From positions 248,001 to 312,000 of the forward strand of contig NZ_CP022889.1 in the NCBI RefSeq assembly GCF_002269345.1: DNA of 64,000 nt. Reading direction: 5' to 3'. Both the position numbers and the translations under genes were made by a program. Origin of the DNA: Tsuneonella mangrovi (GTDB taxonomy: Bacteria > Pseudomonadota > Alphaproteobacteria > Sphingomonadales > Sphingomonadaceae). The notes under the pieces are model-generated. The model worked only from the letters and a program-made list of their open reading frames with translations. It was not told the DNA's origin and ran no database searches. How positions within the stretch are numbered: the first letter of the stretch is position 1; each line of letters starts with the position of its first letter. Of the stretch, positions 16,269 to 22,836 are shown in pieces.

Positions 16269-17645
16269 TCAGTCGTCGCGGGCGGGGACTGCCAAAGTGA
16301 AACGCGCGCCCTCCCCCGGGGCGCTTTCAGCCCAAAGATCGCCGCCCATCGCTCGGGCGAGCCGGCGCGAGATGTAGAGCCCGAGGCCCGATCCCCCGTC
16401 GCCGCTGCGACCGAGCCGTTCGAACTTGCGAAACACCGCTTCAAGCTGGTCGGTCTGGAGGCCTGGTCCCTGGTCCGAAACCGTCACCAGAGCCCTGTCT
16501 CCGTCGCGCGCGAGCGCAAGCGCAACCTGCGAACCTTCGGGCGAATAGCGGATCGCATTGCCGACGAGGTTGAGCAGGACTTGCAAGACACGGCGGAACT
16601 CGCCGGTTGCAGGCAGGCTTTCGCCTTCGGGCGGCGCGACGAGAGCGATCTTCTGCTCTTGCGCGCGTACCCCGAGGATGCCGACCGCGCGGCGGGCAAG
16701 GTCGCCAAGGTCGATCGCATCGGGTGCCGTCTTGAAGTCGTCCGATTCGACGACTTCGAGATCGGAAAGGTCTTCGATCAGTGACAACAGATGCTGCCCC
16801 GCCGATGCGATATCGGAGGCGTAGTCGCTGTATTCGTCCGCCAACGGGCCCGCGAGCCGCGAGCGGATCGTTTCCGCATTGGCGATGATCCGGGCGATGG
16901 GTTGGCGCAGCACTGGTGTGAGTTCGCGGCCGAACGACGTCGGTAGCTGTTCGGCCTCTGCCGGGACCTCTCCAGTCGCAACTGCGAGCGGCCTGTCTGC
17001 GACCAACAGAAGCTCGAACCCGGCGCTTCCCGGTTCGGGGGCACCCAATGGCACGAGGCTGGCGGTCCAAAGTCGATCGGATCCTGGTACGTGGCAGGTC
17101 GCGCCGTCCAGCAGCCGCCAGTGCAACGGTTGGCGATGCGCAAGGCCTTCGAACGAGACCAGCTCGCTCCACTTGCGGGATTTCTGCTCGCGCATCGCTT
17201 CGGCGAGGTCTTGCAGATCGGGTGCGGAGCAGTCGACAGCAATAGTCTGCTGGTCCGGGCTGAGGCGCGCAGTGAGTTCGGCCAGTTCCCGATCGATTGC
17301 GATACGCCGCTGGGTGGCATCGTCGTCGGCCTCGGGCGGAATGGGGCTGCTTTGCCACGTGCCGACCGCAATCAGGCATCCGCCATCTTCATCACCGGAC
17401 TGTGGGGCGATTTCGACCCATGCACGAATGACGTCCTCGCCATCGATCGCGCGGATCGTGCGGGCTACCCGGAGTCCGAGCGCGCGGGCCTTGCGAACCA
17501 ACTCGAGCAGTTCCGGGACAGCCACCGTGCCCGGCAGCTCGCCTCCGCAACGGCGCTGCAGGCCCGCAAGCGGTTCGTCTGCCTCGACAAGGCGGTCGTG
17601 AGCATCGGTGCGCGCACGTGCAAGAACAGTGACTGGCGCGGTCAT
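16269..17645 (-). CDS. Histidine-kinase-like protein without the phospho-accepting His
   Basis: A 458-residue protein with the architecture of a soluble hybrid-free sensor kinase: a sensory N-terminal half (to about residue 230), a dimerisation/H-box helix and a complete HATPase domain. The ATP-binding boxes are intact: N box LLNLVGNAIRYSPEGSQ, G1 VSDQGPGLQTD, F box FRKFERLG and G2 GGSGLGLYISRRL. The H-box segment, however, reads FGRELTPVLRQPIARI (residues 238-253), where the His of the normal S-H-E-L-R-T-P motif is replaced by Pro 244. No transmembrane segment is obvious. It may therefore bind ATP but not autophosphorylate in the usual way. It is the last gene of a four-gene reverse-strand cluster starting at 20203. 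The N-terminal part has no recognised domain. Confidence 0.8.
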   Translation of the reverse strand: MTAPVTVLARARTDAHDRLVEADEPLAGLQRRCGGELPGTVAVPELLELVRKARALGLRVARTIRAIDGEDVIRAWVEIAPQSGDEDGGCLIAVGTWQSSPIPPEADDDATQRRIAIDRELAELTARLSPDQQTIAVDCSAPDLQDLAEAMREQKSRKWSELVSFEGLAHRQPLHWRLLDGATCHVPGSDRLWTASLVPLGAPEPGSAGFELLLVADRPLAVATGEVPAEAEQLPTSFGRELTPVLRQPIARIIANAETIRSRLAGPLADEYSDYASDIASAGQHLLSLIEDLSDLEVVESDDFKTAPDAIDLGDLARRAVGILGVRAQEQKIALVAPPEGESLPATGEFRRVLQVLLNLVGNAIRYSPEGSQVALALARDGDRALVTVSDQGPGLQTDQLEAVFRKFERLGRSGDGGSGLGLYISRRLARAMGGDLWAESAPGEGARFTLAVPARDD

Positions 17646-17648
17646 CGT

Positions 17649-18611
17649 CTAGACAACCGTGGAGCGGCCGGATTCAGCCAACAGGGCCACCGCGCGGTCG
17701 GTCCTCAGCGTGTCGAAGCCCTCGGGCAAGGCGATATCCGGGTGGAAATAGAGGAATTGCTGCTCGACTTCCTTGGGTTTGAGGCCCGCTGCCCGCAGAG
17801 CGATCGAGAGACGCGCCAACTGTCGGTCGTTGGTGGCGACGATCGTTAGGTCGCGCGCTTGCTTGACCGAAGCCGAGAGCGCGCTGAGGAAGATCGCAAC
17901 GCCGGAATGTCCGACCGATAGCGCGGCGCGGATGCCATTGCCCATTTCGTTGACCAGTCGCTCGATCAACCCGAGCCGGCTGGCGCTTTCGTTGTACGAC
18001 TGACGCAGCTGGATTTGCGCGTCGGCGGCCGCCTCGCGGTGATGCTCCTCGCTCGCGGCCAGCAAGCATTCGAGCGCATTGTGAAACAGGTCCGATGGCA
18101 GTTCGGTGAGCGGAAGTTCCATGCGGTGCTGCCGCTGGACGAACCGTGCCTGGGCCGTCAGCGCTGCCATGGCGGTGGTGGCGACCTGGTCTTCATCCGA
18201 TGAAACAAGCGCCTGGAGCAGCGGGCTGAGAACCGGGTCGATCGCATTGCGTCGCTCGAGCCGCGTAGTGAGCTGGAACTCGAGTGCGAGCGCATGGCAG
18301 TGGCTGGTGATGCCGCCGTCCGCCATCAGGCGCTTGGCGAGCTGCTGGGTGTTTTTCTCGGCGAAGCCGTGCGGGTCGGGCAGCTTGCCGAATTCGGCCT
18401 GTGCCAGAACCAGTTGGCGAGCCAGTGCCATGATCATCCCACGCACCCTGCTCACGATCTCGTCGCTGAACAGCGAGTGATCGTGGTTCGCGAGCAAATG
18501 GCCGAGAATCGGCTCGATCGTGCCGAGCACGACGTCACCGTGCGCAAGCTCGTCGCGCAACACCGATTCGATGGGAATCGTGGTCGATTGGCTCATGACA
18601 GCATCATTCAT
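17649..18611 (-). CDS. Helical protein of unknown function
   Basis: A 320-residue protein, unrecognised. It looks entirely alpha-helical, with no signal peptide and no membrane segment. The middle (ATTAMAALTAQARFVQRQHR) and the stretch SEEHHREAAADAQIQLRQSY look like helical bundles. The C-terminal third has IVATNDRQLARLSIALRAAG and a short motif YFHPDIALPEG. It lies 3 bases upstream of the His-less kinase gene, so the two are almost certainly co-translated. It may be a partner of that protein, but this is inference from spacing only. An alternative start is Met 6. Confidence 0.75.
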   Translation of the reverse strand: MNDAVMSQSTTIPIESVLRDELAHGDVVLGTIEPILGHLLANHDHSLFSDEIVSRVRGMIMALARQLVLAQAEFGKLPDPHGFAEKNTQQLAKRLMADGGITSHCHALALEFQLTTRLERRNAIDPVLSPLLQALVSSDEDQVATTAMAALTAQARFVQRQHRMELPLTELPSDLFHNALECLLAASEEHHREAAADAQIQLRQSYNESASRLGLIERLVNEMGNGIRAALSVGHSGVAIFLSALSASVKQARDLTIVATNDRQLARLSIALRAAGLKPKEVEQQFLYFHPDIALPEGFDTLRTDRAVALLAESGRSTVV

Positions 18612-18646
18612 CGTGCCCGCGATAGCGCAGCATGGTTAAATGCGCG

Positions 18647-19819
18647 TTAGCTGCGTCGGAAAGGCTTCAGAAGGCGGGCAAAAAGCCCGACGATCCCGAT
18701 CCCCGCCAGTCCCAGCGCCGGTACGCCCGCCACAGCAGCCCAAAGTGCACCAAAGTAAACAAGTGCCCGGTCGCCGAAAGGTCGCGCCCAGACCGGGGCC
18801 TCCGGCTCTCTCGACAGGCGCATCGCTGCGACGACGACACTCGCAGCAAGCATACCTGTGATCCGCATTTCGGGCATGATTCCTGCGGATACAGCGATCA
18901 GTGCTGCATCGAGGATGACCCCGAATGCAAAATCGAGCAATTCGCGCTGCTTGCTCCCTCCCCCCGCCCGTGCGAACCGGGCCAATTGCTGCGCGACTAC
19001 TGCAAGCAGCCCAGCAAGCAGTAGCGCGAGGAACCCTGCTGCCACGCGCCCGCTTTGGCCGGCGAGCCCCGCTCCCACGGCGAGCGCAGTCGAACCGGAC
19101 AACATGAGGTTTGGCAACCAACGTGTTCGATTCCTTGTGGAAACGAACTGCGCGATGCGATAACCAAGCGCTTCGGTCGGCCGCGTCCAAGCGGGAGACG
19201 GCACGTGTTGCTTGAGCCATTGGCGCTCCAGCCTCGTAGCAATGGCCTGGCTACGGACGAGCGACCAGCGGCCATCATCAAGCGCCGATTCGGGAACCGG
19301 AATTGCGCGCACACCGCGCTGCAGGGCGATCCGCAGCAGGCCTGCAATGGCATCACCATCGGCGGGTAGCGCGGTGAGCGATTCGACTGCATCCCCACGC
19401 ACCAACAGTAGCCCGCCCCACGCGCGATCGCGATCGATCCGCTCAAATCCGTGCTCGAGCCCGCTTTCGACCGGCAGGACCGCGACCCCCGCACGATCCG
19501 AGAAGCGTTCTTTCAGCCAGGCGTGGTCAGCGACCAGACCGGGTGCGATGACCAGAACCTCGTCGTTCGCACTGACCAATCCGGAGAGGCTGCGATGCGC
19601 GGCGATAGCATTGAATTTGATGCCGAAATCGTCGCACTGGTGCTGCAAGGCTGCGATTTCGGGGCCGACCGTTTCGGCCAGGCACACGACCCGGCTGCAT
19701 CCGAGCGCATGGGCGGCATCGACCTGCAATGCGAGGACCGTTCGCCCGGCAAACGGCAGCAGGCCCCTGCCCGGTTCGCCGAACTGCGCGCCCAATGCCG
19801 AAAGCAGTGCAATGCGCAC
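18647..19819 (-). CDS. Degenerate nucleotidyltransferase / CDP-alcohol phosphotransferase-like membrane protein
   Basis: 390 residues from GTG 19819, chosen because a GAGGAGG ribosome-binding site lies 7 bases before it; an ATG 60 bases upstream has no such site. Residues 1-50 (LLPFAGRTVLALQVDAAHAL) resemble the N-terminus of sugar-phosphate nucleotidyltransferases, but the GxGxR signature is absent. Residues 212-235 (TRPTEALGYRIAQFVSTRNR) and the following membrane segments resemble the entry to a CDP-alcohol phosphotransferase domain, as in fused IPC transferase/DIPP synthases. The DxxDG-AR catalytic motif is missing. Membrane segments are near 238-256, 260-282, 300-315, 322-336 and 352-385. 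Probably non-catalytic or with changed activity; the domain identification is by eye. Confidence 0.6.
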   Translation of the reverse strand: MRIALLSALGAQFGEPGRGLLPFAGRTVLALQVDAAHALGCSRVVCLAETVGPEIAALQHQCDDFGIKFNAIAAHRSLSGLVSANDEVLVIAPGLVADHAWLKERFSDRAGVAVLPVESGLEHGFERIDRDRAWGGLLLVRGDAVESLTALPADGDAIAGLLRIALQRGVRAIPVPESALDDGRWSLVRSQAIATRLERQWLKQHVPSPAWTRPTEALGYRIAQFVSTRNRTRWLPNLMLSGSTALAVGAGLAGQSGRVAAGFLALLLAGLLAVVAQQLARFARAGGGSKQRELLDFAFGVILDAALIAVSAGIMPEMRITGMLAASVVVAAMRLSREPEAPVWARPFGDRALVYFGALWAAVAGVPALGLAGIGIVGLFARLLKPFRRS

Positions 19820-19903
19820 CCGTGCGCCTCCTCGAACCGGTTGAACGGTGAAACTAGGGTCTACGAGGAGCGGTGCCAAGCATTCGCGCGGCGCAGCGCG
19901 AAA

Positions 19904-20203
19904 CTAGTTCGAAAAATCGACGCAATATTGCTCAATCCGCCGGATCACTGTCGGTTCGCCCGGCGCAGAAGCGAGTGCTTCTTCGGCCAGCGCCTGCAGA
20001 TCCGTTGCATGGAAGCTTGCGGCAAGGCCCTTCAGGCGCATTGCGGCAACCTGCCAGTTGCCGTCGCACCGGGCGCGCCGAAGCAGGTCGAGATGGCCCG
20101 ACAGGCTTTCGCCGAATGCCTTGCGCAGTTCGGCGAGTAGCGCAGCATCCTCGCCCGCAGCAGCGGCGAGCGTCGCGTCGAAGTTTCCGTGTTCATATGC
20201 CAT
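19904..20203 (-). CDS. Hpt-like protein lacking the phospho-accepting His
   Basis: A 99-residue helical protein with the layout of a histidine phosphotransfer domain: ELRKAFGESLSGHLDLLRRA followed by the core AAMRLKGLAASFHATDLQAL. In active Hpt domains this core reads AHxLKG; here Met 55 stands where the His should be, while Leu 57, Lys 58 and Gly 59 are kept. It should not accept phosphate at that site. It is the first gene of the reverse-strand cluster ending in a kinase-like protein that also lacks its His. It is divergent from the coiled-coil gene with 74 bases between. Confidence 0.65.
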   Translation of the reverse strand: MAYEHGNFDATLAAAAGEDAALLAELRKAFGESLSGHLDLLRRARCDGNWQVAAMRLKGLAASFHATDLQALAEEALASAPGEPTVIRRIEQYCVDFSN

Positions 20204-20277: not shown

Positions 20278-22836
20278 ATGACCGGGGGATTTCATATTCG
20301 GGCCGTGGGTCCCGAGGGCGGCGCGGCTGCGTCTGGGCAAACGCAAGTTGAGCCGGGGGACGATGCCCCGCTCAACCTGAGCGAGGATTGGGTGGCGGAC
20401 GAGGAGCAAGCCGATCCCGCCGATTGGGCCGATTACGAGGAGCCGAAGCGGAGCTGGGGCTGGCTCGTCCCGACATTCGCACTGCTCACCGTCGCGATTT
20501 GGACAGGATACTTTGGCTGGGCGCAACAGCAGGCGTTCCTGATCGGGGCTGCACCTTGGGATTGGACCGCATTGATTGCGCAATGGTCGATGCCGGTGCT
20601 GCTCGTGGTCGGGCTTTGGCTCCTGGCGATGCGCACAAGCCGGCGCGAAATGACCCGCTTTTCCGATGCGAGCCGCAGCCTGGCGCACGAATCGGCAGCG
20701 CTTGAAGCGCGCTTGGTGACGATCAATCGTGAGCTGAGTCTTGCGCGGGAATTCCTCGCTTCGCAGACTCGTGAGCTCGAAACGCTCGGACGTGTGGCAA
20801 CCGCTCGCCTGAGCGAAAATGCCGAGCAATTGCAGTCCCTGATTGCCAACAACGGCGAGCAGGTCGAAGCCATTGCCAAAGTAAGCGAAGCGGCAACCGA
20901 GAACATGGATCGCTTGCGCGGTGACTTGCCGGTCATCGCGAATTCGGCGCGTGATGTCTCGAACCAGATCGGTGCGGCGGGCAATACCGCGAAGGACCAG
21001 CTCGAGACGCTGGTGGCAGGTTTCGAGCGGCTCAATGAGTTTGGTCAGGCAAGCGGACGGCAGGTTTCCGCGCTGCAGGCCAAGGTGGATGAGACAATCG
21101 CGGCATTCTCCGCACAACTTTCGCAGATGGAAGAAGCGTCGAGCGCCCGGTTCATTGCGCTGCGCGAAAGCAGCGAGGCGTTCCGTACCGAGCTCGACGG
21201 GCGCGAAGTCGATGCGCTTGCCGCGATGCGGCACCGAGCCGACAAACTGCGCGAGGAAGTTGCGGCAGCGACGGCTGACCTCGAAGCGCGCGAGGAAGAA
21301 CTGCTTGCATCGCTGCGCGCGCGCATCTCGGCTGTTCGCGAAGGTGCCGCCACGGTCTCGCACAGCCTTGCCGAAGGCGAAGACAGTGCCGCCAGCAAGT
21401 GGGGCGAACGCATCTCTGGATTGCAAGACAACTTGGCCGATGCAATCGAAGCGATCGGCCAAGCCGAACGGGAATCACTGGAAAGCGCCAATGCTCGCCT
21501 CGATGCGGTTCGGACCGCCACCGAGCAATCGCTGGCCGAACTCACCGGGAAGCTGGCCGAATTCGACGCCGGACTGGAAGAGCGAACTGCTGCCCAGCTT
21601 GCGCGCGCGCAGGATATCGAGGATCACGGGCGAACGCTCGGCGAGCGCATCGATGCGCTCGGTTCGCAGATGTCTGATGCCGCGAGCCAGGGACACGAGG
21701 CACAGACAGCGCTCGCTGCGGCGCTCGACGCATTGGCGGCGCGTCTGACATCGAGCCGCGAGGCGCTTGGCGAGACCGACCGGACGGTGTCCGATCTTAC
21801 TGACGCCAGCGTGCGCCTGCTCGAGCTGATCCAGGCAAGTGTGAAGCATAGCCAGGGCGAATTGGCCGACGCGATGGGATCGAGCGAAGAACGTCTCACC
21901 GAACTGACCAGGCGCGGCGAATCGCTTGGCCTGATGCTCGACAGCGCCGGAGAGAAGAGCCGCGAGCTCTCGGAATATGTCCTCGCCGCCCAAAACGACA
22001 GCGCAGCGGCACGCGAGGAAGTTGCCGCTTTCCACGCCCAACTCGCTACAACGACCAACGGTCACGCCGAGCAACTCCAAAGCCTGAAAGCACAGCTGGC
22101 CGCGCTCGCGTCCGACAGCGCGCAAGCCTCTGCGTCAGCCCAGGGCAGCCTGAGGGAAGCGATCACGGCGCTGGAAACGTCTGCGCGGGAGGCGATTGCC
22201 TCGCTCGAGGACACCAGCAGCGAACGCTTGCGCGCGATTGCCGATCGGATCGGAGCGGATGCAGCGGCGGCTATCGGGACAGCCGTGCGGGAGCAGTCCA
22301 GCGATGCGGTTTCAGAGGTCGAGGAGGCGGTCGCCCGTGCCGCGCGTGCCGGACGCGAGACCGCAATCCAGTTGCGCGACCAGCTTGCGCGGGTGAACGA
22401 ACTCGCGGGCAACCTCGAAAGCCGCGTGGCCCTCGCCCGCGAACGCGCCGAAGAACAGGTTGACAACGACTTCTCGCGCCGCGTTGCGCTGATCACGGAG
22501 AGCCTCAACTCGCACGCGATAGATATCTCGCGCGCGATTTCGGCGGATGTCTCCGACAGTGCATGGGCGAGCTACCTCAAGGGTGACCGAGGCATCTTCA
22601 CGCGTCGCGCGGTGCGCTTGCTCGACAATGCGGACGCCAGGGAAATCGCCACAACGTATGAAAACGACGATGATTTCCGCGCCCACGTGAGCCGCTACAT
22701 CCACGACTTCGAAGCGATGCTGCGCACGATGCTCTCGACCCGCGACGGCCATGCCATCGGCGTGACCCTGCTCAGTTCGGACATGGGCAAGCTCTATGTC
22801 GCGCTGGCCCAGGCGATCGAGCGACTGCGCGACTGA
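20278..22836 (+). CDS. Large membrane-anchored coiled-coil protein
   Basis: An 852-residue protein starting MTGGFHIRAVGPEGG. An acidic N-terminus precedes two membrane segments, about residues 60-80 (WLVPTFALLTVAIWTGYFGW) and 98-117 (IAQWSMPVLLVVGLWLLAM). From about residue 120 to 740 it is almost continuous Ala/Glu/Arg-rich coiled coil, for example SAREALGETDRTVSDLTD-like repeats around residues 490-510. A folded C-terminus with several Trp/Tyr residues follows (DSAWASYLKGDRGIFTRRAV). The topology suggests both ends in the cytoplasm with a short periplasmic loop. No enzymatic motif is seen. Similar proteins are often labelled ATPase or apolipoprotein-like on the basis of the coiled coil only. 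A structural or chromosome/envelope scaffold role is possible, not shown. The open frame extends upstream, but that part lies across the Hpt-like gene. Confidence 0.8.
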   Translation: MTGGFHIRAVGPEGGAAASGQTQVEPGDDAPLNLSEDWVADEEQADPADWADYEEPKRSWGWLVPTFALLTVAIWTGYFGWAQQQAFLIGAAPWDWTALIAQWSMPVLLVVGLWLLAMRTSRREMTRFSDASRSLAHESAALEARLVTINRELSLAREFLASQTRELETLGRVATARLSENAEQLQSLIANNGEQVEAIAKVSEAATENMDRLRGDLPVIANSARDVSNQIGAAGNTAKDQLETLVAGFERLNEFGQASGRQVSALQAKVDETIAAFSAQLSQMEEASSARFIALRESSEAFRTELDGREVDALAAMRHRADKLREEVAAATADLEAREEELLASLRARISAVREGAATVSHSLAEGEDSAASKWGERISGLQDNLADAIEAIGQAERESLESANARLDAVRTATEQSLAELTGKLAEFDAGLEERTAAQLARAQDIEDHGRTLGERIDALGSQMSDAASQGHEAQTALAAALDALAARLTSSREALGETDRTVSDLTDASVRLLELIQASVKHSQGELADAMGSSEERLTELTRRGESLGLMLDSAGEKSRELSEYVLAAQNDSAAAREEVAAFHAQLATTTNGHAEQLQSLKAQLAALASDSAQASASAQGSLREAITALETSAREAIASLEDTSSERLRAIADRIGADAAAAIGTAVREQSSDAVSEVEEAVARAARAGRETAIQLRDQLARVNELAGNLESRVALARERAEEQVDNDFSRRVALITESLNSHAIDISRAISADVSDSAWASYLKGDRGIFTRRAVRLLDNADAREIATTYENDDDFRAHVSRYIHDFEAMLRTMLSTRDGHAIGVTLLSSDMGKLYVALAQAIERLRD

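Follow-up and report, generated by a model that had tools for sequence, protein, structure and literature searches.

DivL has neither kinase nor phosphatase activity and binds DivK~P, and change of its residue R553 weakens this binding (PMC4211667, in the part of the text available). AHP6 and other plant pseudo-HPts (pseudo histidine phosphotransfer proteins) disturb the relay, with competition as the most likely means, according to the available sections of a second report (PMC5975490). In Caulobacter, a relay runs through ShkA, ShpA and TacA (PMC7010744, partial text). A study of the Caulobacter Hmr pathway, likewise available in part, describes a putative Hpt protein without the HxxKG motif, plus a hybrid kinase that possibly lacks its catalytic His (PMC11481889). 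Here we describe a cluster of four genes in a 64,000-nucleotide stretch of the 2.70 Mb genome of Tsuneonella mangrovi (positions 248,001 to 312,000 of NZ_CP022889.1; this whole stretch is called the window), which encodes a kinase-like and an Hpt-like protein, both without the phospho-accepting His. To our knowledge, bacterial pseudokinases and plant pseudo-HPts have been described one at a time.

Sequence comparison supports the view that both proteins lost the acceptor His in the lineage of this family and that both are still under purifying selection. Our best explanation, held with a little less than even confidence, is a phosphorelay-derived system that would no longer pass phosphoryl via the usual His: an ATP-binding switch or scaffold resembling DivL, with an AHP6-like, receiver-binding Hpt. 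Four reverse-strand open reading frames (ORFs) were present at 16269-20203, as described in a first-pass annotation of this DNA. They are separated by gaps of 24, 35 and 3 bases, and these small gaps make the four genes operon-like. The cluster is flanked by gltA on one side and by a divergent coiled-coil gene on the other. Its features, with those of this neighbor, are as follows.

16269..17645, reverse strand: kinase-like protein, 458 residues, with a sensor-like N-terminus, a DHp (HisKA) domain with Pro244 at the phospho-His position and a complete HATPase domain (Pfam)
16914..16916, reverse strand: codon of Pro244, the phospho-His position of relatives (alignment with 32 His-bearing relatives; coordinates from the ORF)
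17649..18611, reverse strand: all-helical protein, 320 residues, a putative diverged DUF2336 protein (homologues match PF10098; it adjoins the kinase in other families too)
18647..19879, reverse strand: membrane protein, 410 residues, TTG start, with a degenerate MobA-like N-half and an apparently inactivated CDP-alcohol phosphatidyltransferase-like C-half (NTP_transf_3 match weak; Pfam)
19904..20203, reverse strand: Hpt-like protein, 99 residues, putatively ShpA-type, with Met55 at the phospho-His position (Pfam Hpt match sub-threshold)
20039..20041, reverse strand: codon of Met55, the phospho-His position of HxxKG (alignment with His-bearing relatives; coordinates from the ORF)
20278..22836, forward strand: divergent coiled-coil gene, 852 residues, with N-terminal membrane segments (judged by eye) and a long coiled coil; the usual neighbor of the Hpt gene

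The kinase-like protein scored 31.6 bits against HisKA (cut-off 26.9) and 95.1 bits against HATPase_c (cut-off 26.4) in Pfam, and its HATPase fold contains the N, G1, F and G2 boxes. Its H-box reads LTPVLRQP where that of a true kinase reads MSHELRTP, and P244 aligns with the His. For wider comparison we used 147 genomes of the order, 64 from the same family (Sphingomonadaceae in the GTDB sense, here and below) and 83 from other families. The phospho-acceptor His was found at the kinase site in none of 57 same-family orthologues, nor in the window (0/58 in all), one same-family genome, G053, being excepted. The site was occupied by Pro in 32 of the 57, Arg in 9, Gly in 6, Glu in 3, Gln in 2, and Thr, Ser, Ala, Val or Asp in one each. 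Nine sampled ATP-binding residues (Asn359, Asn363, Asp391, Gly393, Gly395, Phe405, Gly418, Gly420 and Gly422) were present in 57/57.

Residues next to the lost His had changed as well. The following position holds Glu in 21/21 aligned His-bearing kinases; it was A, V, S, I, G or T in 57/57 of the orthologues. Four residues on from the His, Thr was seen in 32/32 relatives and was retained in 2/57 His-less orthologues (Gln in 34, Gly in 8 and Ser in 6 of the 58 His-less kinases). With the His, the Glu and this Thr all lost, the usual kinase and phosphatase residues appear to have gone together. At +3, the arginine that corresponds by offset to DivL R553 was kept in 53/57.

The Pfam Hpt match of the window's Hpt-like protein fell below the cut-off (16.1 vs 24.6 bits); 12 of 24 aligned homologues matched Hpt at E-values up to 0.1. 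The protein carries the motif AAMRLKG where relatives have AHKLKG, with M55 at the His position. The His of HxxKG was present in 0/46 same-family sequences (window included) and in 0/80 named loci, G053 again excepted. These named loci are the best 80 of 440 in an Hpt search whose pattern was fixed as RL[KRQ][GS]LAASF[HGA], leaving the His position free, and are mostly close relatives. In the 46 sequences, Met and Leu each took the site 14 times, Trp 5, Gln 4, Glu 3, Gly 2, and Thr, Ser, Ala or Arg once each; in the named loci it held Met (52), Leu (20), Gln (5), Glu (2) or Phe (1). Beyond the site, Lys was retained in 33/46 and Gly in 36/46 of the same-family sequences, which speaks for the explanation proposed here. 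At the kinase site, the 75 named loci holding a kinase showed Pro in 74 and Ser in one. An AlphaFold2 model of the window protein was a helical bundle (pLDDT 90.3). With this model, Foldseek placed HPt proteins in the top 12 ranks at probabilities of 0.35-0.90 and E-values of 0.46 or worse, a match by rank and not by significance. The first-pass annotation had reported Pro and Met in place of the two His residues and complete ATP-binding boxes in the kinase-like protein. The alignments agree on each point and extend both losses to nearly the whole family. It had asked whether Pro and Met are fixed; they are not, as ten residues occur at each site.

Relatives that retain the His were found for both proteins. 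At 20 loci spread over six other families, as well as in G053, a same-strand DUF2336 gene lay immediately upstream of the best kinase match, and all 21 of these kinases keep the His within MSHEL[RK]TPLNAI[IL]GF. Eleven further kinases, taken by match alone, all have the His; they mostly adjoin a DUF2336 match, as judged by coordinates (adjacency is not shown for G023). The His was thus seen in 32/32 DUF2336-linked relatives, read in 31 of the 83 other-family genomes plus G053. Within the family, the kinase profile at E-values up to 1e-45 matched 59/64 genomes, of which one (G053) had the His. Hpt-profile matches at E-values up to 0.01 occurred in 18/83 other-family genomes. Hpts were read in 17 of these (the weakest, G016, was left out) and in G053, and all 18 had the His, although a number of the matches are weak (8e-4 at worst) and three (G009, G020, G023) are loosely aligned, so that orthology is uncertain for some. 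G053 (locus L065) therefore keeps the His in both proteins.

Since the His-bearing homologues belong to other families and G053, both losses are old and lineage-wide, not local. The first-pass annotation had held that homologues with a normal His would make the changes local; such homologues do exist, but the changes are not confined to this genome. In the kinase tree, the His-less proteins formed one clade (99/100) on a long stem, and descent of the kinase-like protein from a His-bearing, DUF2336-linked kinase is supported at the sequence level. The GltA tree does not resolve the branching of G053, near the family base; in it G133 and G135 lie on false long branches, wrong reading frames having been used.

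A profile of nine His-bearing Hpts, searched against solved structures, matched Caulobacter ShpA (2ooc) best, at an E-value of 8.5e-13, with YPD1 next at 7e-4. A profile of the window's own Hpt family found no Hpt in the PDB, which counts against a ShpA-type assignment; the apparent homology of the window protein to ShpA runs via its His-bearing relatives and the coiled-coil neighbor that they share. This gene stood divergently beside the Hpt gene at 11/11 same-family loci and 8/9 His-bearing loci (G053 included); at the ninth, L142, a contig end is nearby. Twelve class-level homologues were read, the best 12 matches of a search that matched 42/152 genomes. All keep the His and ten are small proteins; six of these ten had a divergent coiled-coil-like ORF within ~0.9 kb, although coil composition can inflate such matches. 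These comparisons support the view that the Hpt-like protein descends from an Hpt of ShpA type that had the His. We also considered loss of sigma-54, and with it of a TacA-type output, as the cause of the Hpt change. This was not supported: PF04552 was found in 143/147 genomes (the search did not cover TacA and ShkA themselves), and sigma-54 activator domains have 7 matches in the window genome.

The ratio of nonsynonymous to synonymous substitution rates (dN/dS) was well below 1 in all four genes across eight hand-picked pairs: 0.01-0.21 for the kinase, 0-0.16 for the Hpt, 0.02-0.24 for the DUF2336 protein and 0.03-0.42 for the membrane protein. These values indicate purifying selection on all four. 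Mean entropy of the ATP-binding (CA) domain was equal in His-less and His-bearing kinases (1.15 vs 1.15 bits; 58 vs 32 sequences). Three positions were newly fixed in the His-less kinases: R252 in 55/58 (Ala in 32/32 relatives), R410 in 58/58 (Gln in 31/32) and P267 in 58/58 (variable in relatives). In the same comparison constraint was lost around the His, affecting S, H, T and N in the H-box region as well as other residues. The equal ATP-domain entropy and the newly fixed residues suggest a changed job, switching rather than decay.

The named loci span Novosphingobium, Erythrobacter, Tsuneonella, Qipengyuania, Sphingorhabdus and others, and 74/80 hold all five genes, in the same order and on the same strands in 74/74, more than chance would give. 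At 58 same-family loci (one of them L065), profiles matched the membrane gene in 56, a DUF2336-type gene in 49, the coiled-coil gene in 44 and the Hpt in 34. Alignments A1 to A4 used 26/50, 24/35, 30/58 and 30/57 of the available rows (window included), and the folding alignments 54/70 and 47/71 listed relatives plus the window.

The helical protein between the kinase and membrane genes matched no Pfam family in its window form. However, PF10098 (DUF2336) was matched by 12/26 aligned homologues, with a best E-value of 6.4e-64; via these intermediates, it is a putative DUF2336 member diverged beyond direct Pfam detection. DUF2336 adjoins the kinase in both His-bearing and His-less systems. The profile missed it in several genomes, and four loci of one genus (L038, L039, L041 and L043, genus g6) have an ORF of similar size in its place. 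Its AlphaFold2 model is all-helical (pLDDT 95). The model had no PDB match at E-values up to 0.001, and there was no sequence match either; the model suggests that the DUF2336-type protein may be a new fold. Four loci from two families (L112, L119, L120 and L121; f4 and f8) carry a further DUF2336-type match, on the opposite strand and a few kb past the kinase.

Distant homologues of the membrane protein in other families are open frames of 443-523 codons. Three homologues were scanned: PF01066 (CDP-alcohol phosphatidyltransferase) was found in G007 and G105, and nothing in G053. The motif D..DG..AR, which we take to be the catalytic motif of CDP-alcohol phosphatidyltransferases, was absent from all 136 family membrane-protein ORFs, a set that includes near-duplicates and from which G053, G105 and G135 were counted apart. 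It was present in 7/11 other-family homologues and in G105, a same-family genome, and absent in G053 and G135. The membrane protein is thus, by sequence, related to these transferases and a putative inactivated enzyme; because some outgroup copies are degenerate too, the motif loss is not unique to the family. The locus in G105 (L147) has a membrane homologue with an intact CDP-alcohol transferase motif, yet no kinase match. The first-pass annotation had listed a degenerate membrane protein and a helical unknown: the former is a putative third inactivated enzyme, and the unknown a likely DUF2336 protein. Of the four proteins in the cluster, three have the look of relay parts or enzymes that have been inactivated.

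With the His lost and the genes preserved by selection, the cluster proteins probably signal by binding rather than phosphorylation. The earlier suggestion of a signalling-derived system put to another use is a good reading of near family-wide loss of both His residues beside complete ATP boxes. In the mechanism we propose, the kinase-like protein would still bind ATP, and the DHp dimer would change shape with the nucleotide state and sensor domain of this protein. In the way that DivL binds DivK~P, the DHp face would bind a receiver protein or else a kinase partner, and the DUF2336 protein, the usual neighbor of the kinase, would read the DHp shape. The Hpt-like protein would be a receiver-binding decoy or docking piece, as in plant pseudo-HPts, tied to the membrane through the neighboring coiled-coil protein. 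The membrane protein, a dead enzyme, would serve as an anchor or ligand sensor. A real but doubtful possibility is that kinase, Hpt and enzyme-derived membrane protein have all been converted, within this family, to a single ATP-gated binding system that works independently of phosphorylation and whose output DUF2336 would read.

Several observations weigh against an ATP-binding switch or scaffold of this kind. The His-less clade joins the DUF2336-linked His kinases at 86/94, and this fork also includes two other kinases of the window genome; the case for kinase orthology thus leans on linkage no less than on the tree. A good share of the lost constraint falls on DHp helix 1, which contributes to the receiver-docking surface (mean entropy 0.52 -> 1.33 bits), and residue 251, which matches DivL T557 by offset, varies. 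Near the lost Hpt His, Lys and Gly are kept in part only. In the dN/dS analysis, dS exceeded 1 in three of the eight pairs, and one genome occurs in two of the pairs. Of 58 genomes that keep the His-less kinase, 12 have no Hpt or just a fragment of it; G083 (L045), for example, a near relative, has a 34-residue remnant. In G131 (L136), also a near relative, the Hpt, coiled-coil and membrane genes are present, but the stretch from the membrane gene to gltA gave no match for kinase or DUF2336. A single obligate complex is therefore unlikely. G135 keeps the membrane and coiled-coil genes, with no match for kinase, DUF2336 or Hpt.

The two proteins may also be functionally unconnected, a DUF2336-kinase module and an Hpt/coiled-coil module having been brought together, each now deprived of its own phosphorelay. 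We regard this as unlikely, though deserving of serious weight. Hpt and kinase occupy separate loci with different neighbors in other families and are also apart in 11 genomes of the same family, and either gene can be lost without the other. Together with the 12 genomes in which the Hpt is gone or a fragment, these separations do not sustain the first-pass description of the pair as two relay partners. Caulobacter ShpA, moreover, is served by the hybrid kinase ShkA (PMC7010744, in the part available). Against separate modules stand the common linkage in one operon-like cluster and the agreement of His state across all 63 genomes with readings for both genes: 45 of the same family have neither His (34 linked loci, the window and ten unlinked), and 18 have both (G053 and 17 of other families). 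This agreement may reflect one event per gene, and so does not amount to 63 independent observations.

It is rather unlikely that the kinase-like protein heterodimerises with or inhibits an intact kinase, as RetS with GacS and RocA with CovS reportedly do by heterodimerising, the Hpt-like protein being unrelated to that function. The DHp domain is kept, with HisKA above cut-off, and the same genome yields 12 other matches at E-values up to 0.001; but the conserved neighbor is DUF2336 and not a kinase.

Continued kinase activity on another acceptor, whether H285 in the second DHp helix or, in trans, a residue of a different protein, we consider improbable. The nine invariant ATP-binding residues would suit it, and H285 is present in 56/57 His-less orthologues. 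A conserved His elsewhere in the dimerisation helix, which the first-pass annotation named as a finding that would speak against its view, therefore does exist. However, 20/21 His-bearing relatives carry H285 too, so that it appears to be inherited rather than a new acceptor. The Glu after the H-box His has also been lost, and the cluster's own Hpt is without the usual acceptor.

That the genes are functionless, decaying remnants is highly improbable and disfavored: parts are indeed lost in some genomes (14/64 same-family genomes without an Hpt match, 5/64 without a kinase match) and the kinase match is interrupted by TGA in G083 and by TAA in G130, but low dN/dS in four genes, ATP-binding residues fixed in 57/57 and newly fixed residues all argue the other way.

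A DivL-like, ATP-binding switch or scaffold thus continues to be the explanation we prefer. If kinase, Hpt and membrane protein did in addition become a single binding system, as outlined above, this family would have a signalling system built largely from inactivated enzymes. A pseudokinase, a pseudo-Hpt and a third, putatively dead enzyme occur together in one conserved cluster. His-bearing relatives with the same neighbors survive in other families, which opens the path from catalysis to binding to direct testing. DUF2336 gains a first functional lead as a kinase neighbor, and the coiled-coil gene becomes linked with ShpA-type Hpts. A TipN identity of the coiled-coil gene, suggested by its architecture, is speculative. 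Among the matches listed in our literature search, in which most subscription journals were outside the scope, none dealt with this cluster, and the name DUF2336 had no match in the literature searched. The main text of a fitness paper (PMC10725011), as far as it was available, contained none of the terms 'histidine kinase', 'two-component' or 'DUF'.

Each part of the cluster has a known analogue; what is new is that a single, widely conserved cluster combines them and that relatives with the His have been identified. Like DivL, as described in the available text, the kinase-like protein keeps the DHp and ATP domains and the arginine at +3 and has lost the phospho-His across orthologues. It differs in that the DivL site is Tyr (Ala in one species), whereas ten residues occur here, with Pro dominant, one Ala and no Tyr, and in that its gene adjoins DUF2336 and has His-bearing, DUF2336-linked relatives. 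The helical protein is putatively assigned to DUF2336 (PF10098) via intermediates, and the window member is too diverged for a direct Pfam match. In the Hmr pathway, judging from the accessible part of that study, other proteins are involved (HmrB and CCNA_03265); CCNA_03265 lies outside hmrABC, and HmrB is modelled as a dimeric hairpin. The window Hpt resembles AHP6 in being an Hpt without the His, but is bacterial, putatively ShpA-type and of other origin, and the likeness is drawn without a known relay for it to compete with. ShpA itself is the best match of its His-bearing homologues among solved structures, and differs from the window protein in having the His.

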